From assembly GCA_903822525.1 (NCBI GenBank), contig CAIJPI010000040.1:1-38650 (forward strand): a stretch of DNA of 38,650 nucleotides, written 5' to 3'. The translations under genes and the position numbers were made by a program. Positions 6,706 to 22,286 of this stretch are shown in pieces; the stretch's first letter is position 1; each line of letters starts with the position of its first letter. The DNA comes from an uncultured Bacteroidales bacterium. GTDB taxonomy: Bacteria > Bacteroidota > Bacteroidia > Bacteroidales > UBA4417. Under the pieces are notes generated by a model that worked only from the letters and a program-made list of their open reading frames with translations, was not told where the DNA came from and did no database searches.

Positions 6706-8784
6706 TTATGAAGATATTTCAGGGTTAGCAGTTGGAATGGTATCGTCGGTCAGGATGGGAACTACTTCGGGAGTGGTAACCGAAGTTGCTTCAGCAAGAC
6801 GAAGTTCATTTGTTTCACCGCTGCTGTTGATCATTACATGGTCATGGTCAGCAAATGGGCGCTTACCAAATATTTTCTCCAGGTCTTCACGGAAGATCAC
6901 TTCTTTCAGAAGCAGTATCTCTGCCAGCGAATTGAGTTTTTCACGGTTATCAGTCAGCAACAGTTTAGCTTTGGAATAGCATTCTTCAACCATTTTATGA
7001 ATTTCCTCATCGATTGTACGTGCTGTTTCTTCGCTGAAGGGCTTTGAGAATGAATATTCATTCTGTCCTGACGAATCGTAGTAACTTATATTACCGATTT
7101 TCTTATTCAATCCGTAGAAAGCAACCATGGCATATGCCTGTTTGGTGACTTTTTCGAGGTCGTTCAGGGCTCCTGTCGATATTTTTCCGAACACAATTTC
7201 TTCAGCAGCGCGACCACCCAGGGTAGCGATGAGTTCGTCAATCATTTGTTCGTAGGTAGTTATCTGCCTTTCGTCGGGAAGGTACCAGGCAGCACCGAGG
7301 GCTTTTCCGCGTGGCACAATGGTAACTTTTACAAGAGGATGTGCATGTTCGAGCAACCAGCTAACAGCTGCATGTCCCGATTCGTGGTATGCAATTACTT
7401 TCTTTTCGTGCTGTGAAATAATTTTATTTCGTTTTTCGAGACCTCCAACAATGCGGTCGATAGCATCGAGAAAATCCTGTTTATCTATCATTTTCTTGTC
7501 GCTGCGGGCAGCAATCAGTGCAGCCTCATTACAGGCATTGGCGATATCGGCACCCGAAAAACCAGGAGTTTGCTTAGCGAGGAAATCAACGTTGGCAGTG
7601 TCGTCCATTTTTAAGTTACGCATATGTACTTTAAAAATAGCTTTACGTTCTTCGAGGTCAGGAAGTTCAATATAGATCTGCCTGTCGAATCGTCCTGCAC
7701 GGAGCAATGCCCTGTCGAGGATATCAGCACGGTTTGTTGCTGCCAGGATAATAACGCCGGCATTGGTCTGAAAACCATCCATTTCGGTAAGCAACTGGTT
7801 GAGTGTATTCTCGCGTTCGTCGTTCCCGCCGGTCATAGCACTTCGTCCGCGGGCACGGCCTACGGCATCAATTTCATCGATAAAAATAATGCTGGGTGCT
7901 TTTTCTTTGGCTTGTTTAAAAAGATCACGTACACGTGAAGCTCCAACACCAACGAACATCTCAACGAAATCAGATCCTGAAAGTGAGAAAAAAGGAACTT
8001 TAGCTTCGCCGGCGACAGCTTTGGCAAGTAAGGTTTTCCCGGTACCAGGAGGGCCTACCAGCAATGCACCTTTAGGAATTTTTCCTCCCAGGTCAGTATA
8101 TTTTTTAGGGTTTTTCAGAAATTCAACAATTTCCATAACCTCCACTTTAGCTTCCTGCAGGCCGGCAACATCGTTAAAATTCAGCGAAACCATGGTGTCT
8201 TTATCAAAAAGCTGTGCCTTTGATTTCCCTATATTGAAAATCTGACCACCGCCACCGGCACCGCCTTTGGTCATCATACGCATAATTAAAAACCATAATC
8301 CTACCAGCACAACAACAGGCAGAATCCAGCCCAACAGATCACCACCCCAGTTTTTACGGGTAACATTCTGTAAATATACAGGAGTGGTCACATTAAGTTG
8401 GGCTTCGCGAACATCTTTTTCGAAAGTTTCGACCGAGCCTATCTGGTATATATAATGAGGCGCTGAAGCAGCCAACGTATTAGCCGGTTTTACATCTTTA
8501 AATTTGGATAAGCCAAGTTTATCTTTCTTAATATACACCTCTGCCTGTTCTTTATTCACCAGGAGAATTTTATCAATTTCCTGGTTCACAAGCATCTCTT
8601 TCAATTCGCCCCAACCAAGCTCTTTTGGAGAAGCTCCCATATTGTTGAGGTAGAGTCCAAACAGAACTATCCCCAGCACACCGTAAATCCAGTAAAAATT
8701 GAACTTCACTTTGGGCATTTTTGGCATTTTTGGCCCACCGGAACCTTGAGAGTTATCGCTTTTGTTATTATCGTCGTTACTCAT
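6706..8784 (-). CDS. ftsH: ATP-dependent zinc metalloprotease FtsH
   Basis: This 692-residue membrane AAA+ protease degrades misassembled membrane proteins and short-lived regulators as a hexamer. There are membrane helices at about residues 30-48 and 150-170 with an extracytoplasmic domain between them. Walker A is GPPGTGKT (244-251), Walker B FIDEID (301-306), and the second region of homology with arginine fingers spans about 350-368. The zinc motif HESGH is at 467-471, with a third ligand at Asp542 ([10 protein letters not shown]). The N-terminus has an extra 27-residue polar Pro/Lys/Met tract, as in other Bacteroidota. The gene follows rsfS by 27 nt and precedes the LUD gene. Confidence 0.98.
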
Positions 8785-8811
8785 TATAGTTAGATTCTTA
8801 GAATTTTTATT

Positions 8812-9189
8812 TTAGTTAATAGCAGAGACATCTTCGCGCGGAGCATCAGCCCAAAGCTTTTCCAACTGGTAAAACCCGCGTGTTTCTGTCTGAAAGATAT
8901 GTACAACCACATCAAAATAATCAAGCAGTATCCACTCGCAGTTTTCGAACCCTTCTTTATGTGAAGGGAAACCACCTACTGCCTTTTTAACTTCAGCCTG
9001 CACCGAGTCGGCAATTGCATCAACCTGTGAGCGTGATGCGCCATGGCAGATTACAAAATAGTCAGTGATTGAATTAGGGATTCCTGATAAATTAAGCTTT
9101 ACAATATCTAATCCGAGTTTCTCCTGCATTCCTTTAACAATAATATCTGCAAGCATTCCCGAAGTTTCACTTCTTTTACGTTTCGCCAT
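8812..9189 (-). CDS. rsfS: Ribosomal silencing factor RsfS
   Basis: This 125-residue protein of the RsfS/Iojap family binds uL14 on the large subunit and blocks subunit joining when nutrients are low. Diagnostic segments are DYFVICHGASRSQVDAIADSV, the glycine-rich KEGFENCEWILLDYFDVVVHIF block and the FYQLEKLWADAP tail. It is the first gene of the rsfS-ftsH-LUD run. The ATG at 9189 matches the usual N-terminus, with a short basic extension (MAKRKRSETS). Confidence 0.95.
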   Translation of the reverse strand: MAKRKRSETSGMLADIIVKGMQEKLGLDIVKLNLSGIPNSITDYFVICHGASRSQVDAIADSVQAEVKKAVGGFPSHKEGFENCEWILLDYFDVVVHIFQTETRGFYQLEKLWADAPREDVSAIN

Positions 9190-9340
9190 TTAGGTTTTAT
9201 TAATTTCTTTTTTCAAATTTATTTTATACGCTGCAAACAGCTTTTGTCATGTTTTACCAGCAACAACTTTTAACAGCTGAAAAGGCCAGTCTGAATTATA
9301 CCAAGCCCAAAAATTCAACCGCTTCATTGACATTAAGTTG

Positions 9341-9348
9341 CAAAGTTA
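9341..9348 (-). promoter_or_regulatory. Candidate -7 element for rsfS-ftsH
   Basis: The minus strand reads TAACTTTG followed by CA, a consensus Bacteroidota -7 element, which would give a leader of roughly 145 nt. A second match (TAAATTTG, 9221-9214) lies closer to the gene. No clear -33 TTG was found for either. The 336-nt divergent gap 9190-9525 holds these and the birA promoter, and nothing else was recognised. Confidence 0.45.
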
Positions 9349-9479
9349 CGGATTATAAGTAAATGTTCTTTTGATAATAATGGTAATCGCGCAACAAACT
9401 TCAGTCCTTTTTATAAAACACGACAATATGTCATTAAGCAGGTTACGCCTTTTTGAACGCTTGAATGAGCTATTTGTTT

Positions 9480-9487
9480 TAACTTTG
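9480..9487 (+). promoter_or_regulatory. -7 element of birA
   Basis: TAACTTTG matches TAnnTTTG, 38 nt upstream of the proposed TTG start. A TTG lies 16 nt upstream, somewhat closer than ideal. Confidence 0.5.
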
Positions 9488-9525
9488 TATGTTAATAAAC
9501 ATTAATACTCAAAAAGCAAAAGCGA

Positions 9526-10263
9526 TTGAAGGCCAAACTATACCGAGTTCCGGAAACCCCTTCTACCAATTTACTTGCCCTGGAGATGCTCTCGAAAGAT
9601 CGTCCTGATGAGGGCTTTGTAATTATTACCGACCATCAGACGCTAGGCAAAGGAATGGATACTAACCAGTGGGAAAGTGAAAAGGGCAAAAACCTGACTT
9701 TCAGCCTTATACTTTATCCCCCTTTTGCAGCTGACCGGCAATTTTTACTAAATAAAGCTATTTCGCTTGGGATTTACGACTTTTTGCAATCAGAACTACC
9801 TGAACAAGAGGTTACGATAAAGTGGCCCAACGATATTTATATAGGCGATAAAAAAGCCTGCGGAATGCTGATTCAGAACTCAGTAATAGGGAATAAGCTG
9901 GAATATGTAATTGTTGGAATCGGCCTCAATGTTAACCAGACTGTTTTTACAAGCAACGCACCGAACCCGGTTTCGATGAAAATGATAACTGCAAAGGATT
10001 ATAATCAGGAAGAATTGCTCCAGGTACTACTGCAATGCATCTTTGAACGCTACAAGCAGTTAAAACACGGCTCAGGTAGAGTCATAGAAACTGATTACAA
10101 GAAAGCGCTTTATCGTATTATGGAATGGCATGAATATTTAATAAAAGGCAACCGCATAAGAGCCAGGATTAATGGCACCAACATGTATGGACAACTCATG
10201 CTTGAAACTGAAACAGACTCAATTCTGATCTGTGATTTGAAGGAAATAAAATTTAATTTTTAA
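9526..10263 (+). CDS. birA: Biotin-[acetyl-CoA-carboxylase] ligase
   Basis: This 245-residue monofunctional biotin protein ligase attaches biotin to the carboxylase BCCP domain. The catalytic core shows ETPSTNLLALEM, the biotinyl-AMP loop region DHQTLGKGMDTNQWES (GKGM in place of the usual GRGR), NLTFSLIL, KWPNDIYIGDKKACGML, and VGIGLNVNQ. A short C-terminal SH3-like part closes it. There is no N-terminal winged helix, so it cannot act as the E. coli-type repressor. The only sensible in-frame start is TTG at 9526; no ATG fits. It is divergent from rsfS, as is common in Bacteroidota. Confidence 0.92.
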   Translation: MKAKLYRVPETPSTNLLALEMLSKDRPDEGFVIITDHQTLGKGMDTNQWESEKGKNLTFSLILYPPFAADRQFLLNKAISLGIYDFLQSELPEQEVTIKWPNDIYIGDKKACGMLIQNSVIGNKLEYVIVGIGLNVNQTVFTSNAPNPVSMKMITAKDYNQEELLQVLLQCIFERYKQLKHGSGRVIETDYKKALYRIMEWHEYLIKGNRIRARINGTNMYGQLMLETETDSILICDLKEIKFNF

Positions 10264-10368
10264 GTGGCCGGTATACTGCCTTCTGTTTTTTGCTCCGGCA
10301 TTCTGCAAGATGTCTATTTCCAACCCACGATACCATCCATGTTGGAATGAAAGAATTTTGAACCTCTA

Positions 10369-11349
10369 CTATTTTCCCATTGTATTTATTTCCATACCAA
10401 TATTCCCTTTATTCACTGAAACAGGGTCGATAAGGAGAGCTGGGACTAATTTAAGCCCATTGTCAACAGTGAAGGTCGCGTAATAGATAGAATTACTACG
10501 GGCCATATCCATTGCCATGCGCGCAGCATTGGAGGCTAAATCTTCAATTGATTTGTACACTGACATAGCTTGCCAGCCTTTGACAATATTTTCGCGGGCC
10601 TGCGAATCGGCATCCTGCCCGGCTACCAGCACTTTACCTGTCAGGCCTTTTTCTTCAAGGGCTTTAATGGCCCCGCTTGCCAGTAAGTCGTTACCAGCAA
10701 TTATAGCATCAACCCTGTTATAGCGCAGGCATTCTTTTGCAGCTTCATACCCTTCTTTAAATGTCCATGATTTAACCAACTTATTGTATACGATCCTGAT
10801 ATCGCCCCGTTCGATGTACGGCTGAAATATCCCCATCTGCCCGAACTGAAGCAAAAATGAGTTCTTATCGGTATATGCGCCACCAATCAACGCAACATTG
10901 CCTTTCTGCAACCTGTTTTTAATGTAATCGGCCTGCAATTCGCCTACTTTAACATTATCGAATGAAATATAATAGTCGACATCCGCACCCTGAATCAGAC
11001 GATCGTATGAGATCAGACCTACAGATGCTTTCTTTGCCAAAACCACTATATCAGCAGCTTTTAGCAGGTCGACCGGCAAAACAACCAATATATCAACTTT
11101 TTCGTTAATAAGTTCCTTAGCCTGTTCAAGTTGTTTAGCAGGGTCGCCATTGGCCGAAAGGCATACAACTCTGCCTCCAAGTTTATTAACATGCCGGATA
11201 AAGTACGTTGTATCTTTTGCCCATCGTTCCACATTGTACTGGTCCATCAACAGACCAATAAATGGTACTTTTTCACGGGGCTTGCAGGTCTGGATCAGGA
11301 TTGACCCGGCAATCAGCATAATTATTGAAAGAAATAAGCTGGATCTCAT
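10369..11349 (-). CDS. XylF-like periplasmic sugar-binding lipoprotein
   Basis: This 326-residue type I periplasmic binding protein (Peripla_BP_4 family) is closest in pattern to D-xylose-binding proteins. Seen are PFIGLLMDQYNVERW near the start, DILVVLPVD, GLISYDRLIQGADVDYYISFDN, VALIGGAYTDKNS, DAIIAGNDLLASGAIKALEE and VAGQDAD. The N-terminus has a hydrophobic helix followed by Cys22 (ILIQTC), a plausible though imperfect lipobox. No ABC permease, ATPase or sensor gene is nearby, so it is an orphan. It could serve a distant transporter or act as the ligand sensor of a hybrid two-component system. The ligand is inferred only from family pattern. Confidence 0.85.
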   Translation of the reverse strand: MRSSLFLSIIMLIAGSILIQTCKPREKVPFIGLLMDQYNVERWAKDTTYFIRHVNKLGGRVVCLSANGDPAKQLEQAKELINEKVDILVVLPVDLLKAADIVVLAKKASVGLISYDRLIQGADVDYYISFDNVKVGELQADYIKNRLQKGNVALIGGAYTDKNSFLLQFGQMGIFQPYIERGDIRIVYNKLVKSWTFKEGYEAAKECLRYNRVDAIIAGNDLLASGAIKALEEKGLTGKVLVAGQDADSQARENIVKGWQAMSVYKSIEDLASNAARMAMDMARSNSIYYATFTVDNGLKLVPALLIDPVSVNKGNIGMEINTMGK

Positions 11350-11660
11350 GGCATGTATGTATTAAAGTTAATTGAATGTGACAATATTCACGGATAAAAA
11401 GAGCAGTTGATTCTTGACTTGATTAGTTCACCTAAAGTTAAGGTAAAATTGTAAAATTTCAAAATAGATTGGTTTTTTTATTAAAAATAATTCCACATAA
11501 CATTGCAAAACAATATCTTACTTAAAATATCTTACGTTTTGTTACTCAAATTTTAATCTACTTGTAGGGGTAAAATGCTTTTCAAGTGTCTTACTATTTG
11601 AGAATATATATTTACAAGGAAACTGAAGTAGCTTGGCAACAAAACCATAATGATACAGCT
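11350..11660. other. AT-rich divergent intergenic region
   Basis: No gene is seen in this 311-nt gap between the divergent binding-protein and T9SS-cargo genes. It holds two closely spaced copies of ATATCTTAC near 11513-11536. No perfect TAnnTTTG promoter was found for the T9SS gene; TACTATTTG near 11591 has one extra base in the spacer. Confidence 0.4.
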
Positions 11661-12509
11661 ATGAAATCGTTCCTTACAATTTTATTTGTTGCAGCCGGTC
11701 TTACACTGACAGCCCAGACTGTTTTTCCTGATAATGGAGAATGGAATCAGAAATACCATTCCATTGCCTGGGGGCATGGAGGCGTGGTACTGTGGGATTA
11801 CACTGTTTATAAGCGATATTCGATAAACGGAGATAGCATATCCGGGGATACCAGGTATATGAAACTATTTATAAATCAAAATTTTACAGGTTACCTGAAA
11901 ATTGATAGCCAGCAAGTGAGGTATGGATCAAATGCGGATTCCATGTACCTGCTTTTCGATTTTGGGCTAAACCCCGGCGATACTTTTACATTTCATGCCA
12001 GCTCATACAGCTATGGTATATTGCAGGCTACTGTTTCGGCAGTTGACACCGTAATTATTAAAGGAGAATACCGTAAGAGGATAAAATTTACTTCATTTCC
12101 AGGCTATAACACAGGTGCTGAATGGATTGAAGGAATAGGCGATGTGAATTTTGGGGGGATTGAACTGGATTATTCATATGTTGCATGGTGGGCAAATACT
12201 ACAAGCCTGGTATGTTTCAGTGAAAACGGGCAGAACATATACGGAACCTGTACTTTGGGAATTAATGACATGGAACACCAGCCAAAGGCATGGCCGAATC
12301 CGACTGACGGCATTATTGCGATAGATCTGAATTACACCGGCCAATCCATTAAAATTGAGTTGTATGATGCAAGAGGCAGTCTTGTGTTGACTGATATCTG
12401 TAATAACACGAAAGCAGTGATCGACCTCAGCGCTTTGAGCAGGGGTGTATATTATTTAGCTATTTATGAAAACAGCATTAAGTTCTGCCGGAAAATTATC
12501 AAAAACTAA
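11661..12509 (+). CDS. Secreted protein with T9SS sorting domain
   Basis: This 282-residue exported protein has a signal peptide (MKSFLTILFVAAGLTLTAQ, cleavage near 19). A beta-rich central region of unknown family contains many Tyr, Trp and Asp residues. The last 70 or so residues form a Por secretion-system (type A) C-terminal sorting domain: AWPNPTDGIIAIDL, then IELYDARGSLV, then LSALSRGVYYLAIY and a basic end KFCRKIIKN. The domain directs export by the type IX secretion system. The frame is open from 11586, but the signal peptide fixes the start at 11661. Its stop overlaps that of the convergent Hdr-like membrane gene by 4 nt. The passenger function is unknown. Confidence 0.88.
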   Translation: MKSFLTILFVAAGLTLTAQTVFPDNGEWNQKYHSIAWGHGGVVLWDYTVYKRYSINGDSISGDTRYMKLFINQNFTGYLKIDSQQVRYGSNADSMYLLFDFGLNPGDTFTFHASSYSYGILQATVSAVDTVIIKGEYRKRIKFTSFPGYNTGAEWIEGIGDVNFGGIELDYSYVAWWANTTSLVCFSENGQNIYGTCTLGINDMEHQPKAWPNPTDGIIAIDLNYTGQSIKIELYDARGSLVLTDICNNTKAVIDLSALSRGVYYLAIYENSIKFCRKIIKN

Positions 12510-14344
12510 ACACTCATCTGTCCGGCCAGCGACCTGGAGACAGTTTGTTTTATAGAAACAGTCATTCTATCGGCAACAATTTCAGCAATATCTTTTACTA
12601 TCAAACCATTACCAGTGTCGAGAGTCTTTTTGCACAAAGGGCATGCTGTCACCAGCATATCAGGATTAGATTCACACAATATACTTAGTGCCCCATCGCG
12701 GATAATATTCCGTTGTACTGCCGACATTGCCAGATCCCCGATACTACCTCCGCAGCACAGGGAATTTTCGCGATCCTGGGCAACATCAGCTACTTCGGCT
12801 ATCTGTTTCAGCACATTACGCGGTTGCTCGTAAATTCCTGAACCCCTGCCAAGTTCGCAGGGATCGTGATAAACTGCCCTGAAGGCAGCAGGTTCCAGAA
12901 CGATTTTCCCTTCCTTTACCAATGTATCGATATAAACCGAATGATGCATTACCTGCATCCCGTTCAGATTATAATCGGTGTTGAATATCTTGTAACAAAT
13001 CGGGCAGGAGGTAACTAAAATTTTTGCCTTTGTACCAAGTATCGCTTTTGTGTTTTCCGTTATCAGTTTTGATGCAGCAGTTTGCATACCTGCAAGTTTT
13101 AATGGACGGCCACAGCATATGGAACCGTCCTCGTCGAGGAAATTAAAGTCTATGCCGGCTCTTTCAAAAATTTTTATCATAGCATTTTTCACTCCGGGTG
13201 TAAGATGCCCCATGCAGCCGGCAAAATAAACTACATCAGCTTTAGTTGCAGGTACTGGCTGTTTGGCCAGGTAAGTAAAATCCGCTTCTATCTGCCTGTT
13301 ATCGACACCCCTGGCGCCAACCCTCAGTCCCAGGGTATCAATTCCAACGGGGCATGCTTCGAGGCACCTGCCACACATCATGCAGTTGGAATGCAGAAAT
13401 ACCCCGGCTTGTTTTTCGCGCAGCGAACGAATTAAATATACTGCTGAAGAACCTGTTAACCCGGCTTCGTTCATCTGGCAAACATCGATGCAAACACCGC
13501 ATCGGGGACAGGCACGAAGCTCGATCTGGCTGAAACTTCCCGGGTATTTCCCTTGTTCAATGCCTGCATTTCGCAGGAAAATAAGGACGATTTCGGTTGG
13601 AATATGCATAAACCTGCTCCATGGAAGTGTGATAAAGAAGATGCCTAACATGGATGAATAAGCCCACCATGACGGATAAACAAGGTACTTCAAGGGAAGA
13701 AATGCAGCAAAAATATGTCCCAGCGAATTTGTAAGAAATCCACCACCCTGGTATATTCCGGCAGTAAAACTTTCGGCCAGTAACCTCAGGGGGAAGATCA
13801 GCCACAGAGAGATAATGGCCCATTTATCGAAGCTATTGTGCCTGGTAGTCCGTTTCAGTCCAAACCACTTTGAGCGTGCCCGTTTAAAAAGTGCAAGCCC
13901 AAGGCCTGATAGCACAAAAAGCAGAAGCAAGTCCATGGTGAACCTGAAAAAACCGGGAAGTGTGAATATCTCGAAAGGCAATACTCTTTTATCGTGGATA
14001 AAAAATTTCAGAAATATAGGATAGTAGGGCGGATTTATATGTCCGCCGCTGTATATACGCGATTCGAGGTTGCCCATGAGTATCAGCAAAAGCCATCCAA
14101 GAGCAAAGCTCATGTGCATAAATCCGAGCAGGGGATTCTTTTTAAACATGCGGCGGTGCAAAAGACTCTCCCAAAAAATCTCTCTGATGGTTACCGGAAG
14201 GCTGGCCGAAAAGAACGCCATACCGGCTTTCACCCTATCGGATGCATCCATCATGGCTATCCAGCGGCTGTATTTCAGAAACAAAACAATGATCATGAAT
14301 AACAGACCTCCAAAAAACGGAATTACAAAAAGATCAAATGTCAT
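12506..14344 (-). CDS. Membrane HdrD/DsrK-like Fe-S oxidoreductase
   Basis: This 612-residue fusion has an N-terminal membrane domain with about five helices (residues 5-25, 72-92, 130-153, 175-192, 225-243) similar to NarI/HdrE/DsrM cytochrome b. His63, His77 and His247 are candidate heme ligands. Two [4Fe-4S] motifs follow: Cys279/282/285/289 and Cys321/324/327/331. Then come two complete CCG domains: Cys377, Cys410-411, Cys447/450; and Cys496, Cys530-531, Cys568/571. In HdrB/HdrD such CCG domains hold the non-cubane cluster pair that cleaves a disulfide. The likely role is passing electrons between a thiol/disulfide couple and the quinone pool; direction and substrate are unknown. It is the last gene of the Hdr-like cluster, overlapping the preceding HdrC2 gene by 4 nt. 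Confidence 0.88.
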   Translation of the reverse strand: MTFDLFVIPFFGGLLFMIIVLFLKYSRWIAMMDASDRVKAGMAFFSASLPVTIREIFWESLLHRRMFKKNPLLGFMHMSFALGWLLLILMGNLESRIYSGGHINPPYYPIFLKFFIHDKRVLPFEIFTLPGFFRFTMDLLLLFVLSGLGLALFKRARSKWFGLKRTTRHNSFDKWAIISLWLIFPLRLLAESFTAGIYQGGGFLTNSLGHIFAAFLPLKYLVYPSWWAYSSMLGIFFITLPWSRFMHIPTEIVLIFLRNAGIEQGKYPGSFSQIELRACPRCGVCIDVCQMNEAGLTGSSAVYLIRSLREKQAGVFLHSNCMMCGRCLEACPVGIDTLGLRVGARGVDNRQIEADFTYLAKQPVPATKADVVYFAGCMGHLTPGVKNAMIKIFERAGIDFNFLDEDGSICCGRPLKLAGMQTAASKLITENTKAILGTKAKILVTSCPICYKIFNTDYNLNGMQVMHHSVYIDTLVKEGKIVLEPAAFRAVYHDPCELGRGSGIYEQPRNVLKQIAEVADVAQDRENSLCCGGSIGDLAMSAVQRNIIRDGALSILCESNPDMLVTACPLCKKTLDTGNGLIVKDIAEIVADRMTVSIKQTVSRSLAGQMSV

Positions 14345-14688
14345 GGCTTTCCGTTTATTAGCGCTTTACTTATCTGTATGACAAGATTGCGTGTACTCAC
14401 ATTACGCGGACATACCAACTGGCATTTTCCGCAAAGCATACATTTTGAAACTTCTTTCAATAGCCCTTCAGTTTCACCTCTTTTGAGTAAGAGTATAACC
14501 TTACGAAGGCTAAAATCAGTAAATAAACCGGCCGAACAAGTTGCAGCGCATGTACCGCAGGAGATGCATAAATTCAGTGTTGGCTCTGCTACTGCAACAG
14601 CCCTGCATATTTCGTGCTTGTTGGCATCGAAATCAATCTGCCGGTCCTGTACTATGGCGTAGCCGAAATTTATGCTCTTTCGTTCCAT
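14341..14688 (-). CDS. HdrC-like [4Fe-4S] protein (second copy)
   Basis: This 115-residue soluble ferredoxin-type subunit has two [4Fe-4S] motifs, Cys41/44/47/51 and Cys83/86/89/93, each closed by a Cys followed by Ser or Pro. The spacing between the motifs is that of HdrC, which hands electrons between the flavin subunit and the CCG subunit. A 40-residue N-terminal extension precedes the first cluster. It starts 9 nt after hdrA stops and overlaps the membrane HdrD-like gene by 4 nt (ATGA), so it most likely pairs with that protein. Confidence 0.88.
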   Translation of the reverse strand: MERKSINFGYAIVQDRQIDFDANKHEICRAVAVAEPTLNLCISCGTCAATCSAGLFTDFSLRKVILLLKRGETEGLLKEVSKCMLCGKCQLVCPRNVSTRNLVIQISKALINGKP

Positions 14689-14697
14689 GACAGCCTT

Positions 14698-15711
14698 TTA
14701 TTCTTTAAGAAAAGCTTCAACTGCCAATGCGGCAGACCTTGCATCAGCAAGTGTTTCGGAAACCGATTTAGGTCCTGAACAAGTTCCAGCCACGAAAACC
14801 CCTGGCATATCGGTAAAATTCGGCTGCAAAACCTCATCAAGAGGCCGAATAAACTTGTCAGAAACATCTTTTAACCCAAGCATAGCCGTTAAGGATTTGG
14901 TTCCAGCAGCTGGCTCCATTCCTGTCATAAGCACCAGAAAATCTGTTTTGATGCGCAGGGGTTTACCCAGGAGTGTATCCTCAACCTTCACAATGATATT
15001 ACCCTCTTTGTCTTCGGTCGATTCGCTCAGTCTTCCTCGTATAAACTGAATATTGTATTTCTCCTGGGCTTCTTTATACAATTCTTCATAATGCCTTCCG
15101 AACATCCGCAGGTCCATATAAAAACAAAAAACTTCGGTTTCAGGGAACAGTTGTTTAACCTCAACAGCCTGTTTAACAGCAGTAATGCAGCACAATTTTG
15201 AACAATGAAGGTTATTCACCTTTTCGTCGCGTGAACCCACACAATGAACAAAGCCAATCCTGGCGGGATTTTTGTGATTCGAAAAAAGATTTCCCTTCGC
15301 CAAAAGTGTTTCCAGGTCAGAAGAGGTTATAACATTTTCATAAATGCCATACCCATATTCCTCTTTGCGGCGTGCATCGAAGAGTTTGAATCCGGTGGCA
15401 AGAACCACAGCATCGGCCTTTTCCTGCCATCCGTTATGCCCTGATACTGTAAAATAATCATTTACGGCTTCAAGAGCTGTAACCTGGGTATTTGTCTGAA
15501 TTTTTACGTTTTCGTCCAGGCCCTCTTTAATACTTTCAAGTGCTTTTAGTCCCGGCATATTACCAGGGAATAAGGTATGCCAGTTTTTAAGGTGACCGCC
15601 CGAGGTTTCTTCTTTTTCAACCAGCGTAACACGAAGGCCCATCTTCGACAGCTTAGCTGAAGTTTCGAGACCTGCCGGACCAGCACCTATCACAACTACG
15701 TGTTTTGCCAT
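14698..15711 (-). CDS. HdrA-like flavoprotein, short form
   Basis: This 337-residue FAD protein has an N-terminal dinucleotide motif, VVVIGAGPAGLETSAKL (Gly9-Gly14), an ATG motif in VVLATGFKLFD, and a C-terminal FAD segment GVFVAGTCSGPKS. The HdrA-specific cysteine set is Cys157 (VHCVGSRD), Cys170 and Cys174-175, with FYMDLRMFGRHYEELYKEA after it. It lacks the N-terminal domain and the C-terminal ferredoxin inserts of methanogen HdrA. In size it resembles QmoA and sHdrA. It should be the flavin centre of the complex; whether it bifurcates electrons cannot be told from sequence. A 71-nt gap upstream holds a weak TTTTAGC/GCTAAAA inverted repeat (15745-15770). Confidence 0.9.
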   Translation of the reverse strand: MAKHVVVIGAGPAGLETSAKLSKMGLRVTLVEKEETSGGHLKNWHTLFPGNMPGLKALESIKEGLDENVKIQTNTQVTALEAVNDYFTVSGHNGWQEKADAVVLATGFKLFDARRKEEYGYGIYENVITSSDLETLLAKGNLFSNHKNPARIGFVHCVGSRDEKVNNLHCSKLCCITAVKQAVEVKQLFPETEVFCFYMDLRMFGRHYEELYKEAQEKYNIQFIRGRLSESTEDKEGNIIVKVEDTLLGKPLRIKTDFLVLMTGMEPAAGTKSLTAMLGLKDVSDKFIRPLDEVLQPNFTDMPGVFVAGTCSGPKSVSETLADARSAALAVEAFLKE

Positions 15712-15782
15712 GCTATTATTTTATCAACTGACTGTTTATCTGTATTTTAGCTAAACATAAGAGGCTAAAAGGAGAAACTATC

Positions 15783-16883
15783 TTATTTAATTACTTCCGT
15801 ATTTTGCTGATCCGCATAAAACTTCAGGTATGAAGGCGATTCAGGTATTCCAAGGTATTGACCTTGTTTGCCGGTAAACTTTTGAAGAGGATCGTAGGGT
15901 ATGCCAATTTTATCGAGCAGGGGTTCGGCCGGGACCTGGTGAACCTGGAGACCTATTTCCCAAGGATCGTAGCCCATTATCATACCAGCAACCTCTTCAT
16001 ATGTAAAAACAGGAATCCCCTGCTTATTTTTACCGTAGGTTTTCCCTTCCATTTCGCTCAGTGCATATTGCCAGCGATCGAGGAACATCGGGCATCCGGG
16101 GCAATTTGTAATAATCATATCGGGTTCATAAGGCTCCATGGAATCAAATTTCTTTTTGGAGCACGATAGCGAGAATCCACGGTTTGCCTGAACAATATAT
16201 TGTCTGAACCCAAATCCACAGCAGTGACGGCGTTCGGGGTAGTCGATCACTTCACCACCCCAGGCTTCGATCATACCTGAAAGAACGTATGGATATTCCG
16301 CCCCTCCTATTCCCTTATGCGGAAACATTTTTGAATAATGGCAACCGATATGCTCAACCACCTTCAACGGATTCCCGGTTTTTTTATCCACCAGTTTGTA
16401 TTTGGCCTTTGCTGCAATCTGATGTCTTAATTTATAAACGATATCGCTGGCATGAGCCAGGTTTCGGGGTTTGTTGAATTCGCGCCCGGTTGCTTTGAAA
16501 AGATATTCCCTTATTTTAGCCTCTGTTTCGGGAAAATGATTCCAGGTATCGAGGATTTCGGTATACAGGCCGAAACTTGTAACACATGAAGCGGCATAGT
16601 TTTCGTAGCCGGCTTCAGTCATTAATGCAAACTGCCGGGCAACAACGGTCATGGTAGTATCGAAAGGTACCACATCCGAATGATAGCCAATACCTGTGCA
16701 GGATGTATGATGTTGTTCATCGTGAATATCCTTTCCCAGTTCTTCTTTAAGGATCCGCATAAAAATAGCTTCGGCGCCTGGGAAAAAAGTCTGGCGGATG
16801 CAACTGCGTGCATAGAAATAATGGTCATCGGCTATTTCTTTCTGATAATCCTGCCATATCAGCCTTTTACCTTCGAGTCTCAT
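15783..16883 (-). CDS. HdrB-like protein with altered N-terminal CCG
   Basis: This 366-residue protein has one canonical C-terminal CCG domain, Cys181, Cys221-Cys222 (HCCGFGFRQ), Cys241 and Cys261/264 (CPGC), the pattern expected for a non-cubane [4Fe-4S] site. The N-terminal CCG is degenerate: single Cys28, Cys62 (SCTG where CCG is expected) and Cys100 (SCVTSFG where CxxC is expected). A C-terminal extension of about 90 residues after the CPGC motif carries no metal motif. The gene overlaps the upstream HdrC gene by 4 nt (ATGA). It should be the disulfide or thiol-handling subunit with at most one full active site; the substrate is unknown. Confidence 0.88.
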   Translation of the reverse strand: MRLEGKRLIWQDYQKEIADDHYFYARSCIRQTFFPGAEAIFMRILKEELGKDIHDEQHHTSCTGIGYHSDVVPFDTTMTVVARQFALMTEAGYENYAASCVTSFGLYTEILDTWNHFPETEAKIREYLFKATGREFNKPRNLAHASDIVYKLRHQIAAKAKYKLVDKKTGNPLKVVEHIGCHYSKMFPHKGIGGAEYPYVLSGMIEAWGGEVIDYPERRHCCGFGFRQYIVQANRGFSLSCSKKKFDSMEPYEPDMIITNCPGCPMFLDRWQYALSEMEGKTYGKNKQGIPVFTYEEVAGMIMGYDPWEIGLQVHQVPAEPLLDKIGIPYDPLQKFTGKQGQYLGIPESPSYLKFYADQQNTEVIK

Positions 16884-17590
16884 CCGTGATTATGCTTTTG
16901 GTTATTGGCCGAATAAATATGTTGAACGTATTCGCTTCCGGTATCGGTTCCGAATTCCAGTCCCATTTCTTCAGCCTTTTGTTTCGAAAAAGATTCTATT
17001 TTATCGTAAAGATCCTGTCCGCCTGTAATTTCAAAGATTTTCTTTAACTCATCGAGGTCGCTTGCCGGAATTTTGCGTAAAGCGCCTGATCCTTCTCCAT
17101 CATAATTCGCTCCAAGTTTTTCCATAACTGGGCCAAGATTTTGGTATTCCCATTCCCAAACCGGGCCTTGCTCAGGATGCAGAGCCGGGTCGACCATGTC
17201 GGGGCGGACACAATAGCCGGATGACAGAATCTGATCTCCGATAATCCGTTTTACTGCAAGTTGCTGACGGCCTTTCTCTGATTTGGTAAAATAGCCCATG
17301 TCCTGCGACAACGACCGTAATGCCATGATCAGCAGCCCGGGAGCGTTCCCTCTGGGACAGCGTGTTTTGCACGACATGCATTCACCGCAATACCAGATTG
17401 TATCGCTGCACAGCAGTTCTCTAATTGTTTCATCATCCTGCGACTGTACAGCAGTAGCTATAACCCGGGGATCGTAATTGTAAAATTCAGCCGCCGGGCA
17501 TATTGCGGTACATGTACCACAATTTATACAGGCTTTCAGGCTTTCGACAAACCTGATATCTGCCTCAAGCCGGGAATATAGTTCTCCCAA
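16880..17590 (-). CDS. HdrC-like [4Fe-4S] protein (first copy)
   Basis: This 236-residue soluble protein has two [4Fe-4S] sites: Cys21/24/27/31 (CINCGTCTAICP) and Cys68/71/74/78 (CGECMSCKTRCP). A C-terminal helical region of about 130 residues is longer than in methanogen HdrC. The open frame starts with TTG at 17590; no ATG is available before the first cluster, and the N-terminus (GELYSRLEADIRFVESLKAC) fits the family. TACCTTTC (17611-17604) upstream is one base off the -7 consensus and may be the cluster promoter. It is the first gene of the cluster and is translationally coupled to the HdrB gene. It links the HdrA flavin to HdrB. Confidence 0.88.
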   Translation of the reverse strand: MGELYSRLEADIRFVESLKACINCGTCTAICPAAEFYNYDPRVIATAVQSQDDETIRELLCSDTIWYCGECMSCKTRCPRGNAPGLLIMALRSLSQDMGYFTKSEKGRQQLAVKRIIGDQILSSGYCVRPDMVDPALHPEQGPVWEWEYQNLGPVMEKLGANYDGEGSGALRKIPASDLDELKKIFEITGGQDLYDKIESFSKQKAEEMGLEFGTDTGSEYVQHIYSANNQKHNHG

Positions 17591-17761
17591 AATGCAATGT
17601 TTTGAAAGGTAGATATTTATTGATATAAACTACTGAATAACAACCACGTAAAGCGAATTTAGCTCTCAATGACAGCCTCCAGCCAGAATAATAAACAAAG
17701 ATATATTAAACGCACATATAGAATGATAATACAGATATTTGTTATACAGACTAAATAAAAA

Positions 17762-17783
17762 TAGCAGGTCGAAAGACCTGCTA
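17762..17783 (-). terminator. Hairpin downstream of the pyrE-SRPBCC operon
   Basis: A perfect 9-bp stem TAGCAGGTC/GACCTGCTA with a 4-nt loop is followed on the minus strand by ATTTTTATTT. It lies about 40 nt past the SRPBCC stop codon. The rest of the 234-nt gap 17591-17824 shows only the probable Hdr cluster promoter. Confidence 0.7.
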
Positions 17784-17824
17784 AAATATATTCGTTCAAT
17801 TTAATGACTGTTATGCTAATCCTT

Positions 17825-18232
17825 TTACTTTTCCATTACTTCCTTAAGTTTAACAACCAGCATGTCGATGAAATTCTGCAATGGTTTTTCAGCCATCATG
17901 GCGATATACGGATTCATATCAGCATTAATAAGCACCTGAACTTCAGTTTGTTGTGGTGATGATTCACGGATAACGGTATCGAAAGTGAATCCGAACGGAA
18001 GCTTACCTTCTCCTTTCATACTTATAAGGGAGAAAGGAGTTTTGCCTGTAATACGCAAGCCTAAAGTTGCAAGGCCTTTAACCTCAAAAACACACGAGTC
18101 GCCTGTCGATTGCCAGTTTGCAACCTGTTCAGGTAAAATATCAGCGAAATTGTCGAAATTTCCAAGGAAGTTGAATACATCCTCGGGCTTACAACTGATG
18201 TTTACTTTCCGGCTTTCGATATGTTTACTCAT
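17825..18232 (-). CDS. SRPBCC (START/Bet v1-like) protein
   Basis: This 135-residue soluble protein with the SRPBCC fold binds hydrophobic ligands in a deep cavity. Features are the initial strand ESRKVNISCKPEDVFNFLGNFDNFADILP, typical of polyketide-cyclase/CoxG-like members, a central beta sheet, and a long C-terminal amphipathic helix (PLQNFIDMLVVKLKEVM). Its start overlaps the pyrE stop by 4 nt, so the two are co-transcribed, an arrangement common in Bacteroidota. The ligand is unknown and no catalytic residues stand out. Confidence 0.83.
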   Translation of the reverse strand: MSKHIESRKVNISCKPEDVFNFLGNFDNFADILPEQVANWQSTGDSCVFEVKGLATLGLRITGKTPFSLISMKGEGKLPFGFTFDTVIRESSPQQTEVQVLINADMNPYIAMMAEKPLQNFIDMLVVKLKEVMEK

Positions 18233-18879
18233 TTATCGAGCCCCCATCCTTTTGGATTCTCACGCCATTTGATGAGCGACTGCATATCCGAATCCTGGAT
18301 ATAGTTTCTTTCCAGAGCTTTGCTAACCAGGAAATTATAATTTGTGAGTGTATGCAGGCTGCAATTTGCTGCTTTAAAACTTTCTTCTGCATCGCTTAAT
18401 CCATATGTGAATATGGCAACCATTCCTTTAACGTTGCATCCGGCATCGCGAAGGGCCTGAACTGCATTCAGACTGCTTTTGCCGGTTGAAATAAGATCTT
18501 CAACTACCACAACCGACTGTCCGCTTTCAACAACACCTTCGATCTGGTTCTCAAGTCCATGGCCTTTTTTCTCGGAACGGATGTATACGAAAGGCACTCC
18601 CAGTTCCTGGGCAACGAGGGCACCAATTGCAATGGCGCCTGTGGCAACACCTGCAATAAGGTCGACAGTACCATATTCTTCGTTTATCAGTTTTACAAAC
18701 TCCTGACGAATGTAAGTCCGAATTTTTGGATAGGACAAAGTACGGCGATTGTCGCAATAAATCGGTGATTTTATTCCTGATGCCCAAGTAAACGGGTTAG
18801 CATTATCAAGCTTTATTGCTTTAATTTGCAATAGCGATTCTGCAGTAAAAAGAGCTGTTTCTTCAAATTTTGATCTCAT
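18229..18879 (-). CDS. pyrE: Orotate phosphoribosyltransferase
   Basis: This 216-residue enzyme makes orotidine 5'-monophosphate from orotate and PRPP in pyrimidine synthesis. The PRPP loop VVVVEDLISTGKSS spans about residues 122-135, the catalytic lysines sit in RSEKKGHG (about 102-108), and the substrate region is NPFTWASGIKSPIYCDNRR near the N-terminus. Length is normal. The ATG at 18879 is the only start that keeps the family N-terminus, yet its likely -7 element (18891-18884) lies only 5 nt upstream, so the mRNA would be leaderless or nearly so. The divergent NUDIX gene starts at the same bases. Confidence 0.95.
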   Translation of the reverse strand: MRSKFEETALFTAESLLQIKAIKLDNANPFTWASGIKSPIYCDNRRTLSYPKIRTYIRQEFVKLINEEYGTVDLIAGVATGAIAIGALVAQELGVPFVYIRSEKKGHGLENQIEGVVESGQSVVVVEDLISTGKSSLNAVQALRDAGCNVKGMVAIFTYGLSDAEESFKAANCSLHTLTNYNFLVSKALERNYIQDSDMQSLIKWRENPKGWGLDK

Positions 18880-19516
18880 GATGCAAAGGTATATAGTTTT
18901 TTTGAATGATCGGTCAGTAATTATAGATCAAGATATTAACATAACCAAAAGCGGGTCGGGCAGCAAGGTAATTGAATTTACGTCAAGGTCTGCTCTTGCA
19001 AACGCTTACGAAAGTTTTTACGGCGATGCTGACTGTGAGTCACTCATCGTAAAATCGGCAGAAAATTATGTAGAAGCATGCAACGCTTTCAACAGCCTGT
19101 TTATCAGAATTGAAGCAGCCGGAGGCATAGTAAGAAACAATAAAGAGGAATATCTGTTCATCAGGAGGCTAGGCGTTTGGGACCTGCCAAAAGGCAAACT
19201 TCATAAAAAAGAAACAGCTTCAGAAGGTGCACTCAGGGAAGTTGAAGAGGAAACCGGGCTTAAAAACCTGGTTATAAACAAGGAACTACCTTCCACTTTT
19301 CATATTTATAAGGATAGGGATGGGAAAGCCATACTAAAAGAAACATATTGGTTTGAAATGATGTGCCATGATTCTCAAATCCTGGTTCCTCAGCTGGAAG
19401 AAGATATTACTGAAGTAAAGTGGTTTTCAGCCAGTGAAATAAATATCCCGGTGCAAAACACCTATGCTTCACTCCGGCATCTGCTTCAAACCTACATGAA
19501 TCTTTTAAAAAAGTAA
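18878..19516 (+). CDS. NUDIX hydrolase
   Basis: This 212-residue protein has a C-terminal NUDIX domain with a complete box GX5EX7REUXEEXGU: Gly106, then the REVEEETG segment at 120-127. AAGGIVRNNKEEYLFIRR precedes it and WFEMMCHD and EDITEVKWFSASEI follow. The N-terminal 70 residues form a separate domain common in Bacteroidota members. Such enzymes hydrolyse nucleoside diphosphates linked to another moiety; the substrate cannot be told. Starts at 18878 or 18881 (two consecutive Met codons) are possible, and both overlap or abut the pyrE start codon on the other strand. Confidence 0.88.
   Translation: MMQRYIVFLNDRSVIIDQDINITKSGSGSKVIEFTSRSALANAYESFYGDADCESLIVKSAENYVEACNAFNSLFIRIEAAGGIVRNNKEEYLFIRRLGVWDLPKGKLHKKETASEGALREVEEETGLKNLVINKELPSTFHIYKDRDGKAILKETYWFEMMCHDSQILVPQLEEDITEVKWFSASEINIPVQNTYASLRHLLQTYMNLLKK
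18884..18891 (-). promoter_or_regulatory. -7 element of pyrE
   Basis: The minus strand reads TACCTTTG, an exact TAnnTTTG match ending 5 nt before the pyrE ATG. It lies inside the first codons of the divergent NUDIX gene. On the plus strand AAATTTTG (18865-18872), one mismatch from consensus, sits in mirror position for the NUDIX gene. No -33 TTG was seen for either. Confidence 0.5.
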
Positions 19517-19768
19517 AATACCTTTGATATTATCATTGCGAGCCTGCACACCAAATTTATTTGATCGCAAGTGAGGTAATTTAATTGCCAATTGCTGTGA
19601 ATCCGGAAAATCGGAACCCGAACGCTTTGCTTCCAACAGATTTAAATACTCTCCTTTATTAGGAAGGTACTCACCCGGCAAACTCCATTTCATCCATCCC
19701 GACAATCAAACAATCAGAATAAAGAAGCACAAGCTGCATCTTTGAGTTACATATGAGAATTATGTTTT

Positions 19769-19776
19769 TATCTTTG
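19769..19776 (+). promoter_or_regulatory. -7 element of coaD
   Basis: TATCTTTG matches TAnnTTTG and ends 14 nt before the coaD ATG. The predicted leader is about 9 nt. The remainder of the 274-nt gap 19517-19790 shows no gene. Confidence 0.6.
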
Positions 19777-19790
19777 CACAAAACCATACT

Positions 19791-20246
19791 ATGAAAATCG
19801 CAGTTTTTCCGGGTTCATTCGATCCTGTTACGCGAGGCCACGAATCGATTGTAAGGCGGTCCTTGCCGTTATTTGATAAAATCGTAGTTGCTATCGGCGT
19901 GAATGCCGATAAAAGCGGGTATTTCCCGTTGGAAAAACGAATGGAATGGCTAAAGCAGGCTTTTCACGATCTGCCTCAGGTAAGTGTTGAGAGTTACAAT
20001 GGACTGACTGTTGATTTTTGTAAAAAAACAGGTGCCGACTATATAATAAGGGGATTACGTACTTCTGCCGATTTTGAATTTGAGAGGAGTGTAGCCCAGG
20101 TAAATCTGAAACTTGTTCCTGAAATTGAGACAGTTTTTCTGCTTACGCTGCCCGAATATGTAATGGTTACCTCATCCATTGTGCGCGAGGTACACAGGCA
20201 TGGAGGCAATATCGACCAGTTTATTCCGGAGCAAATATCAATTTAA
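19791..20246 (+). CDS. coaD: Phosphopantetheine adenylyltransferase
   Basis: This 151-residue nucleotidyltransferase makes dephospho-CoA from 4'-phosphopantetheine and ATP. The (T/H)xGH motif is TRGH at residues 14-17 within FPGSFDPVTRGHESI. The central IIRGLRTSADFEFE motif and the C-terminal SSIVREV motif, which replaces the usual ISSTxVR in this group, are intact. It is convergent with rsmD, only 2 nt separating the stops. Coenzyme A synthesis role is firm. Confidence 0.96.
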   Translation: MKIAVFPGSFDPVTRGHESIVRRSLPLFDKIVVAIGVNADKSGYFPLEKRMEWLKQAFHDLPQVSVESYNGLTVDFCKKTGADYIIRGLRTSADFEFERSVAQVNLKLVPEIETVFLLTLPEYVMVTSSIVREVHRHGGNIDQFIPEQISI

Positions 20247-20248
20247 GG

Positions 20249-20806
20249 CTATTCTACTTCCGTCGCGGCCGATGGATGACGGAAAAAAGTAAAATGGATT
20301 TTGCCATAGCGGCGTTCATCCCAGAAAAAAGGATTTTCTTTAAAACTCAGGTATTTATCATGTTCCATGATAAACCAGCCATCGTCGGATAGCCATTTGT
20401 TTTCGAAAATCAATAAAGGTATTTTCTCGCGATCGGCCATATCGTAAGGCGGATCAGCAAAAATTACATCATAACTCCCTGCCGGACGAGCCAGATAAGT
20501 GAAAACATTAGTCTGAATAGCCGTTAAATTTCCGAATTTCAGATCTGCAATCATTTTCGTGATATATGCAATGCATCGGCTGCTGATATCAATACTTACA
20601 ACAGCGGTTGCGTTGCGTGAAGCAAACTCCATCGAGATATTTCCCGTGCCTGCGAAGAGATCAAGCACTTTTATGTCTTCGAAATCGACATTATTATTAA
20701 GGATATTAAAGAGGCTCTCCTTTGCCATATCGGTTGTAGGCCTAACAGGCAAACCCTCTGGTGGACGAATCACCCGTCCTTTATGGCTTCCGCTTATTAT
20801 TCGCAT
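20249..20806 (-). CDS. rsmD: 16S rRNA (guanine(966)-N(2))-methyltransferase
   Basis: This 185-residue class I SAM-dependent methyltransferase shows RIISGSHKGR at the N-terminus, RPTTDMAKESLFNIL, the SAM motif DLFAGTGNIS (49-58) and the catalytic DPPY (118-121), all typical of RsmD, which methylates G966 of 16S rRNA. Its start overlaps the end of the DUF3822 gene by 10 bp, so it is the last gene of a three-gene operon. Confidence 0.94.
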   Translation of the reverse strand: MRIISGSHKGRVIRPPEGLPVRPTTDMAKESLFNILNNNVDFEDIKVLDLFAGTGNISMEFASRNATAVVSIDISSRCIAYITKMIADLKFGNLTAIQTNVFTYLARPAGSYDVIFADPPYDMADREKIPLLIFENKWLSDDGWFIMEHDKYLSFKENPFFWDERRYGKIHFTFFRHPSAATEVE

Positions 20807-21672
20807 ACAGGGATGTTAAGAAGTGTAAAATAATTATGTGGAGTAATATTATCAAAAGCCTCACCGAATTCAAGTCCGTCGGGGATTTCGGCAAACCGCA
20901 GTGATTCGCAATACATTTTAAGTTGTTCGGATATAATTGAGCTTTCCGAAATTTCACCCATCAGGGTAATTTTCTCCTCCGAGGGAACAAAACCCAGCTG
21001 TTCGAGCACAAAAATTACGTAGTAGAGAACATCGGTTGGAGCTGAATACCTGAAAGCATTCAGATATAGCAGCCGTGAACCCTGTATGACAGCAATCTCG
21101 AAAAATCCACGCTGAATATTCAGGAATACCTGACGGGCAATTAATTTTGAATGCTTACGCATTACCCCTTTTACGAACACAGCTGGAGCGCATCGTAACT
21201 TTGCTCCGGGAAATATTGCTTCACAATATTCGGAAATGTAAGCAGGAATCAGAACAGCGGTAACAGGTCCTGCCTCAAAAATGGGCTCGGCAAGTATTGT
21301 TTCTTCAGCCTTTACGGTATGAGCGGCTGACATAATGTTCATACTTCCATCAAGCTGAAAAAATTCGTGAGGTGCAATGGTCAACTTATACGAAGCAACT
21401 GCTATATCAACTTTTTGAAAAGGCAGGTGGGTAAGGTCAACTTCTTTTAGATGTTCAAAATAATCCTTTCCATGTAATGGCCATCCTCCCAGTTCAGCCT
21501 GCTGCAAATCAACATGGGCAAGCTTATACGACGCCAACTTGAGTATCTCCAGAGTACCTGAGTGGGTAACAAGGAAAGAAAAGCCATCGTGCAGAAGCAG
21601 AACGGAAAGCCTGTAATTAGATCCCTGGGTTGCATCAAACCGGGGGCTTACTTGATTAGTTATACATTCCAA
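20797..21672 (-). CDS. DUF3822 family protein
   Basis: This 291-residue soluble protein is recognised as the Bacteroidota-restricted DUF3822 family. Visible segments are LSVLLLHDGFSFLVTHSGT near residue 22, VDIAVASYKLTIAPHEFF and the strand-rich C-terminal half with LLYLNAFRYSAPTDVLYYVIFVLEQLG. The family is regularly found beside rsmD and coaD, as here. Biochemical role is unknown. It overlaps rsmD by 10 bp and follows the membrane-anchored gene by 17 nt. Confidence 0.85.
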   Translation of the reverse strand: MECITNQVSPRFDATQGSNYRLSVLLLHDGFSFLVTHSGTLEILKLASYKLAHVDLQQAELGGWPLHGKDYFEHLKEVDLTHLPFQKVDIAVASYKLTIAPHEFFQLDGSMNIMSAAHTVKAEETILAEPIFEAGPVTAVLIPAYISEYCEAIFPGAKLRCAPAVFVKGVMRKHSKLIARQVFLNIQRGFFEIAVIQGSRLLYLNAFRYSAPTDVLYYVIFVLEQLGFVPSEEKITLMGEISESSIISEQLKMYCESLRFAEIPDGLEFGEAFDNITPHNYFTLLNIPVCE

Positions 21673-21689
21673 GGATATAGAGTATTTTG

Positions 21690-22286
21690 TTATTCCCAGT
21701 TCCCATCGGTAGTAGCTTCGGTCATCGAGCCAACTCTGAGTCCGGGGAACAACGATTTGTCTTCCAATTCTTTCATTCTGTTTATCACCAACTGCCTGTC
21801 AAGGTCTTTTGTATAGGTCTCCATTCGTGCTGAAACTTCAAATACGGCAACCTCTACACCCCCTTTATTGATTTTCCCTGCTAAGATCGAGAACAGATCC
21901 CCTTTCGAAAAAGGGATTTCGTTCAGTTTATCGATAGGGTAATTCTTATGGGCAAAAATCGAATCAAAGATACTTATATACCCGATAGTATCGGAAATGG
22001 TCCGTGTAAAAGTTGTATCAGCCGGATCCGGTATAATTTTCACTTCCGGAATTTTACCATTTTTAACGAAAGTTTTTAACGAATCAAAACTGCTTGTATA
22101 CCGTCCAAACTGATAATGGAAAAGCGTTTGTGCAGTACGTATATCCTTCAGCCGGTTGATTATGGAATCGCCTCTGGTTTGGAGCGAATTTTCGAATTTT
22201 ACAGGTTTCTTAATACTGTTAACTATCAGGTATGCTAACAGCATGATAACCCCTGCAAGAATAACCTTAACTGCATTGAAGTTCAT
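21690..22286 (-). CDS. Membrane-anchored hypothetical protein
   Basis: This 198-residue protein has one N-terminal membrane helix (VILAGVIMLLAYLIVNSI, about residues 8-25). A periplasmic segment then begins with a coiled region (RGDSIINRLKDIRTAQTLFHYQFGRYTSSFDSLKTFV), which looks like the start of a pseudopilin-type globular domain. No prepilin cleavage motif is seen. The rest is rich in Thr, Ser and Asp. It is the first gene of the operon with DUF3822 and rsmD. Function is unknown. Confidence 0.75.
   Translation of the reverse strand: MNFNAVKVILAGVIMLLAYLIVNSIKKPVKFENSLQTRGDSIINRLKDIRTAQTLFHYQFGRYTSSFDSLKTFVKNGKIPEVKIIPDPADTTFTRTISDTIGYISIFDSIFAHKNYPIDKLNEIPFSKGDLFSILAGKINKGGVEVAVFEVSARMETYTKDLDRQLVINRMKELEDKSLFPGLRVGSMTEATTDGNWE

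Follow-up and report, generated by a model that had tools for sequence, protein, structure and literature searches.

What reaction is carried out by a gene cluster that resembles the soluble sHdr sulfur-oxidation systems but ends in a membrane protein? The question is raised by a window of 38,650 nucleotides (the whole stretch of DNA analysed) from an uncultured Bacteroidales bacterium (GenBank assembly GCA_903822525.1, contig CAIJPI010000040.1). The source genome totals 4.1 Mb in 354 contigs and is 93% complete; the window is its contig C40. Five genes on its minus strand encode Hdr-like proteins, termed C1, B, A, C2 and D. The chances are about even that these proteins form a membrane-anchored sHdr-type complex, free of the lipoate-binding protein LbpA, which would oxidise reduced sulfur to sulfite and deliver the electrons to menaquinone. 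The five genes are:

16880-17590, minus strand: C1, a two-cluster [4Fe-4S] protein, sHdrC1/HdrC-like (236 aa, TTG start, from open reading frame and domain search)
15783-16883, minus strand: B, an sHdrB1-type subunit, likely the sulfur-binding catalytic subunit (366 aa)
14698-15711, minus strand: A, a short HdrA-like FAD protein (337 aa)
14341-14688, minus strand: C2, a small two-cluster [4Fe-4S] protein (115 aa)
12506-14344, minus strand: D, a membrane-fused HdrD, predicted to be the menaquinone-reactive arm (612 aa)

A conserved cluster in Bacteroidales

The junctions computed from the coordinates are a 4-nt overlap for C1/B, a 71-nt gap for B/A, a 9-nt gap for A/C2, and a 4-nt overlap for C2/D. 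An earlier note on this DNA had listed five minus-strand reading frames, and both these and all four of its junction lengths were reproduced exactly. The domain search found 4Fe-4S dicluster motifs in C1 and C2, one recognised CCG domain in B, a short FAD protein in A, and a 4Fe-4S dicluster with two CCG domains in D.

The operon is conserved within Bacteroidales. D occurs in 66 of 198 genomes of the order, the window's own included, where it is present as one full-length copy. It forms one near-full-length piece in 60 of these genomes and lies in two pieces in six (G036, G047, G072, G097, G101, and G112), which were counted as cluster-positive. Up to 19 kb was taken around 60 of the 65 D matches in other genomes, and these loci have the order C1-B-A-C2-D in 52 cases and C1-C2-D-B-A in two. 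Together with the best 80 loci of a scan of named genomes and the window itself, the loci from the order comprise 135 distinct loci. The order C1-B-A-C2-D is kept in 117 of them, so the five genes mostly stay together in the neighbourhood survey that the earlier note had suggested. Of the 18 non-canonical loci, nine run up to the edge of their contig; in six, part of the cluster is absent or located elsewhere; two show a rearranged order, and one has a diverged C2 that is present but was missed by the scan. The retention of gene order across loci of other genomes indicates that the cluster is not a chance arrangement. Named carriers include Butyricimonas synergistica. Among 395 genomes drawn from the phylum, matches to B at E <= 1e-20 were found only in the window's own genome and in two others at 32% identity. 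Both of the latter hold sHdr type II-like loci (L248 and L249), which come from another family of the same phylum.

One locus (L144, 888-6666) has C1-B alone, and A-C2-D were not found on that 10-kb contig. Its C1-B pair is flanked by a cysteine desulfurase-like gene (identified by reading) with a small Fe-S protein, and by a response regulator with a cysteine synthase.

Subunit features

B is the most conserved subunit, with a median identity of 68% over 56 matches, compared to 46-59% for the other subunits. Its C-terminal CCG site is complete (C181, C221, C222, C261, and C264), and its N-terminal site has three of five cysteines (C28, C62, and C100) in 55/55 sequences. B shares four motifs with three sHdrB1-type sequences, namely SC, T(S/T)C, C-x-T-S-(F/Y), and CCGFGF, which are missing from classical HdrB. 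Two of the three reference loci (L248 and L105) have an LbpA-like gene nearby. Judged from these motifs, B carries the sHdrB1 signature and not that of classical HdrB. In the B tree, which has only three sHdrB1-type references, one of them a lone plasmid copy, the window family stands beside and not inside these sequences, and the fork that separates them from classical HdrB and cyanobacterial B2 has a support of 100/100.

C1 has eight cysteines that are invariant in 55/55 aligned orthologs, and C2 has eight in 60/60. C1 shares 34% identity with its counterpart in an sHdr type II locus. A has the short HdrA form with an FAD motif and the C..CSxxCC pattern of sHdrA, and its C157, C170, C174, and C175 are invariant in 58/58 aligned orthologs. 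Its alignment with the Hyphomicrobium sHdrA (6tjr) runs through the full length of the chain, whereas the methanogen HdrA chains match it as two segments separated by a long intervening stretch. This identifies A as the short form and speaks against a flavin-bifurcating HdrABC complex that also yields reduced ferredoxin. Such a complex would agree with the homology to HdrA, HdrB and HdrC, but no MvhD, Flx or hydrogenase gene was recognised in the neighbour lists, which were not searched specifically for them, and bifurcation is very improbable. Two loci (L077 and L160) have a full-length HdrA of 657 aa, with its own ferredoxin-like cysteine motifs, about 2.4 kb upstream of C1, which is perhaps a second electron entry point.

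The model of D contains five long N-terminal helices, and hydrophobic stretches are also present in the sequence. H63, H77, H247, and 18 cysteines are invariant in 61/61 aligned orthologs. D comprises two cubane sites and two complete CCG sites, and both CCG motifs are kept in all 61 sequences. The model aligns along its whole chain with EtfD (PDB 9ojn), a menaquinone-reducing protein that serves as mycobacterial electron transfer flavoprotein (ETF):menaquinone oxidoreductase. The two proteins share the membrane domain, the dicluster, two CCG domains, the cubane motifs, and similar positions of the heme-ligand histidines. The heme ligands of EtfD are described as His78 and His241, and the invariant H77 and H247 of D lie at similar sequence positions, a likeness of position and not a residue-by-residue alignment. 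In contrast, EtfD has lost the complete CCG motifs (Thr539 and the capping His583), while D keeps both, with C411 and Ile449 at the corresponding places, and sits among genes for Hdr subunits. The two complete motifs together with C411 and Ile449 make the CCG site of D look catalytic, like that of HdrD.

The match along the whole chain could suggest that D is a general electron wire leading from ETF or another soluble donor to menaquinone. The non-catalytic substitutions of EtfD were looked for in D and are absent, and a pure EtfD role for D was rejected on this ground. The electron wire also leaves B, C1, A, and C2 unexplained. Genes resembling etf occur in the flanks of one of 141 loci, which decides little since ETF need not be encoded nearby. 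A wire of this kind is quite improbable. The earlier note had proposed a membrane-anchored thiol/disulfide-quinone oxidoreductase, an interpretation that is partly supported. Its membrane-anchored, quinone-linked part agrees with the helices of D and the EtfD match. The thiol/disulfide part, if taken as exchange with menaquinone without sulfite chemistry (for example, with a low-molecular-weight disulfide or protein-bound lipoate), is in line with the catalytic appearance of the D site in 61/61 sequences. It leaves the cysteate synthase neighbours, the co-occurrence described below, and the sHdrB1 signature of B unexplained; it is unlikely and is rated below sulfite formation.

Cysteate synthase and a probable supply of sulfite

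Cysteate synthase uses sulfite, for which PAPS (3'-phosphoadenylylsulfate) reductase is the usual source. The neighbours of the cluster were surveyed in the 135 loci, whose flanks have medians of 5.3 and 5.8 kb. In 11 loci the cluster is accompanied by an adjacent cysteate synthase gene, always on the same strand. Seven have a TIGR03844-type enzyme that shares 61-100% identity with that of L171 and is encoded 17-99 bp downstream of D. Two of these were scored (L171 at 484.8 and L093 at 442.6 bits), and both exceed the cut-off of 324.9. The other four have an L092-type enzyme upstream of the cluster, which is threonine-synthase-like and scores below the cut-offs of TIGR03844 (107.9/324.9 bits) and of the threonine synthase model PRK08197 (148.7/303 bits). 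A BioF/SPT-family gene is present in 4/4 of these loci and a short-chain reductase (SDR) gene in 3/4. The BioF/SPT-family neighbours are below every cut-off and were taken for cysteate fatty acyltransferase. Cysteate synthase, cysteate fatty acyltransferase, and short-chain reductase form the known sulfonolipid set (PMC11211663 and PMC9304779). The neighbouring genes thus suggest that the L092 type is a second, different cysteate-synthase-like enzyme.

Co-occurrence was scored in the 198 genomes. PAPS reductase was represented by PF01507 (CysH/CysD, a family that also holds CysD) at E < 1e-25, and weaker matches were counted as absent (G017, G034, G059, G109, G113, G133, and G144). PF01507 is found in 148 genomes at this threshold and in 155 at 1e-10. 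The TIGR03844 type occurs in 52 genomes, including one partial match just under the cut-off (G110, 311.9 bits) that was counted as having the enzyme, and the L092 type in 39. A weak match of 84.5 bits in G064 and its second copy G592 was counted as without. The CapA-type cysteate synthase (NF053679) was considered as an alternative consumer and dropped, with 0/198 genomes over the cut-off and two below it at E <= 1e-100.

In PF01507-negative genomes, cysteate synthase is present in 15/18 with the cluster and in 4/32 without it (Fisher p = 1e-6). A hand count of one genome per family, at least 90% complete and with three low or unknown ones dropped, gives 11/14 against 3/13 (p = 0.007). Viewed from the other side, genomes with cysteate synthase have the cluster in 15/19 cases without PF01507 and in 19/72 with it (p = 8e-5). 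A further 50 genomes with the cluster form a second set, taken as the contiguous block L130-L179 of the best 80 loci; completeness figures cover the first set only. Hand-made counts in this set show cysteate synthase in 14/17 genomes without PF01507 and 6/33 with it, where matches weaker than 1e-25 were again counted as absent (G600, G601, G609, G614, and G617) and two loci (L133 and L154) repeat first-set genomes, both with PF01507. The former value is 12/14 when G594, G616, and G635, which are 1.6 Mb or smaller and may be incomplete, are removed. The Butyricimonas genomes G601 and G609 exemplify the cluster with cysteate synthase and no counted PF01507. Odoribacter, a relative of Butyricimonas, has sulfonolipids documented in pure cultures. 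They are likewise documented in pure cultures of Alistipes (PMC5591296).

The association in PF01507-negative genomes is read most simply as a complex that provides sulfite to organisms lacking sulfate assimilation. Cysteate synthase, by its position next to the cluster and its co-occurrence with it, gives indirect support to sulfite as the probable product, and many gut and sediment Bacteroidales probably use the complex to make sulfite for sulfonated compounds. Sulfane or persulfide sulfur would be brought by a carrier encoded outside the operon and oxidised to sulfite at the sHdrB1-like B. Electrons would travel along C1, A (FAD), and C2 into the Fe-S clusters of D, and from there by way of heme b to the menaquinone of the membrane. 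Where anaerobic Bacteroidales have no sulfate assimilation, sulfite would enter cysteate synthase and lead to the sulfonolipid capnine or other sulfonates. The oxidation of sulfide to sulfite with menaquinone is estimated at about -24 kJ/mol. Gene content, conservation, the sHdrB1 signature, the EtfD-like model, and the link to cysteate synthase in position and occurrence were observed here, and the direction, substrate, electron path, heme, and quinone are predicted from them.

Several points weigh against this proposal. No cysteate synthase is present in the available flanks of 124/135 loci. The 11 that have it fall into two clades of an operon tree of 114 loci (the seven TIGR03844 loci in one of 12 tips, the four L092 loci in one of 4), and thus represent two lineages, not eleven events. 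Cysteate synthase shows no association with the cluster across all 198 genomes (34/66 versus 57/132, p = 0.29) or in PF01507-positive genomes (19/48 versus 53/100, p = 0.16). Possible confounders of the co-occurrence are a gut lifestyle and genome incompleteness. The operon encodes no sulfur carrier. The B tree comes with a warning of long branches, and in the A tree the two sHdrA rows join a long Ilyobacter HdrA and not the window family (support 97/95). The window's own genome contains two TIGR03844 cysteate synthases, a PAPS reductase, and no siroheme sulfite reductase (NIR_SIR), and the presence of PAPS reductase means that the displacement argument does not apply directly to it. There, the cluster might serve as an alternative source of sulfite, run in reverse, or have another role.

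PF01507 genes are common among the sampled Bacteroidales, yet NIR_SIR is rare (13/198). This imbalance would be explained if the same complex ran in reverse as a siroheme-free sulfite reductase, with menaquinol reducing PAPS-derived sulfite to sulfide for cysteine. The CysH-like open reading frame just upstream of C1 in L127, and the cysteine synthase and cysteine desulfurase (by reading) around C1-B in L144, are consistent with this. Genomes with neither PF01507 nor cysteate synthase also number only 3/66 with the cluster against 28/132 without. However, the cluster is not associated with PF01507 (48/66 versus 100/132, p = 0.73), an anti-correlation with NIR_SIR was looked for in the 198 genomes and not found, and 94/100 cluster-negative, PF01507-positive genomes also lack NIR_SIR. 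Reduction by menaquinol would be uphill under standard conditions, and 15 cluster-positive genomes have cysteate synthase and no PF01507. Reversal is a doubtful alternative to sulfite formation.

If sulfite formation is correct, the operon provides sulfite for cysteate in sulfonolipid-making anaerobes such as gut Alistipes and Odoribacter, ties the quinone pool to sulfonate synthesis, and performs sHdr-type chemistry without LbpA. It also makes testable the puzzle of common PAPS reductase family genes and rare siroheme sulfite reductase. Sulfite is not mentioned in the main text of the two sulfonolipid-biosynthesis papers (PMC11211663 and PMC9304779). No account of the operon or its cysteate link was recognised among the top-ranked results of a literature search with subscription papers mostly outside its reach, and the sulfite link is new in this analysis.

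Other genes are found near the cluster. A methionine gamma-lyase-like gene lies 57-87 bp downstream in four loci, SulP follows cysteate synthase in three, PiT-type permeases occur in two, and a TauE-like permease (by reading, with no NCBIfam match) in one. Close upstream of C1 (e.g., in L047, L091, and L100) are a histidine kinase and a NarL-type response regulator, named by reading; the regulator cluster occurs in 16/135 loci and the kinase cluster in 14/135, possibly for sulfur or redox sensing. One candidate transcription signal separates C1 from the upstream SRPBCC gene:

17762-17783, minus strand: terminator-like hairpin with 9 pairs and a T tail (consensus match only)

This hairpin, if real, would make the operon a separate transcript. 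The region contains six terminator-like sites compared to 5.8 in shuffled sequence, and 16 promoter sites compared to 13.7 in shuffles.

Comparison with known systems

Classical HdrABC was rejected, as the NCBIfam Hdr scores are far below the cut-offs (e.g., HdrB 150.9/450 bits). Methanogen HdrABC/HdrDE differ from the window in that its B has an incomplete N-terminal site and its A is short. QmoABC and DsrMK are quinone-linked complexes with HdrA/HdrD-like parts. QmoABC was rejected because only one HdrA is present and C1 scores 45/300 bits for qmoC, and DsrMK because D scores 66.9/400 bits for DsrK.

The sHdr-LbpA systems of types I and II (Hyphomicrobium, Acidithiobacillus; reference L248) share the order C1-B1-A-...-C2-B2, the short HdrA with C..CSxxCC, and the sHdrB1-type B. 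In contrast, the window's cluster ends in a membrane protein that carries a dicluster of its own and not in a soluble B2, so the complex is not the soluble cytoplasmic one of sHdr. The full C-terminal CxxC (NCPGC) is also kept in B of the window family, while the three sHdrB1-type sequences read DTGC at this place. One source describes LbpA as inevitably accompanying the sHdr genes (PMC6067878), and another as present with very few exceptions (PMC10332631). L248 is a complete sHdr type II-like locus with LbpA (159-9595), and no LbpA is seen within the 14 kb of reference locus L249. Searches of 141 loci with two LbpA queries and with GcvH of the own genome found no LbpA, which counts against sHdr proper, and no sHdrH-like match was found in these loci. 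The LbpA query is sensitive, as it recovers the own genome's three proteins with a GcvH domain, all on other contigs. No LbpA, MvhD, or hydrogenase was noticed among the reading frames of window positions 8000-22000, where a dedicated search was made for LbpA only, and the lipoate assembly genes sLpl(AB) and LipS1/S2 were not recognised among the frames read, with no search aimed at them. Away from the Hdr cluster, the own genome encodes a pair of GCV_H-domain proteins, of which one has a membrane-like segment, next to HybA-like and NrfD-like genes named by reading (L242, 3293-7885, G000:C42); these are a possible lipoyl carrier.

The earlier note's likeness to the sHdr gene order, its short-form HdrA, and its lack of LbpA all hold in the wider sample. 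The subunit trees that it proposed gave a divided answer: B stands apart from classical HdrB, but the A tree, with its Ilyobacter grouping, is uninformative and partly contrary as evidence of sHdr kinship. The absence of LbpA near the loci places the complex not in sHdr but in a new type related to it.

A close counterpart is on a plasmid of Picosynechococcus sp. PCC 7003 (NZ_CP016476.1, L104 14242-19982). It has the common order C1-B-A-C2-B2, with identities to the window of 50% for C1, 42% for B, and 44% for A. Where the window has the membrane protein, the plasmid has a soluble B2 and then a sulfide-quinone reductase homologue, which matches sulfide-quinone reductases of known structure. 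This cluster is a soluble cousin of the window complex, joined to sulfide oxidation. Somewhat more tentatively than sulfite formation itself, the window complex may represent a third sHdr type that is membrane-anchored, lipoate-protein-free, O2-independent, menaquinone-linked, sulfite-forming, and possibly reversible, and that in anaerobic Bacteroidales would serve to build cysteate and sulfonolipids and not to gain energy from sulfur oxidation.

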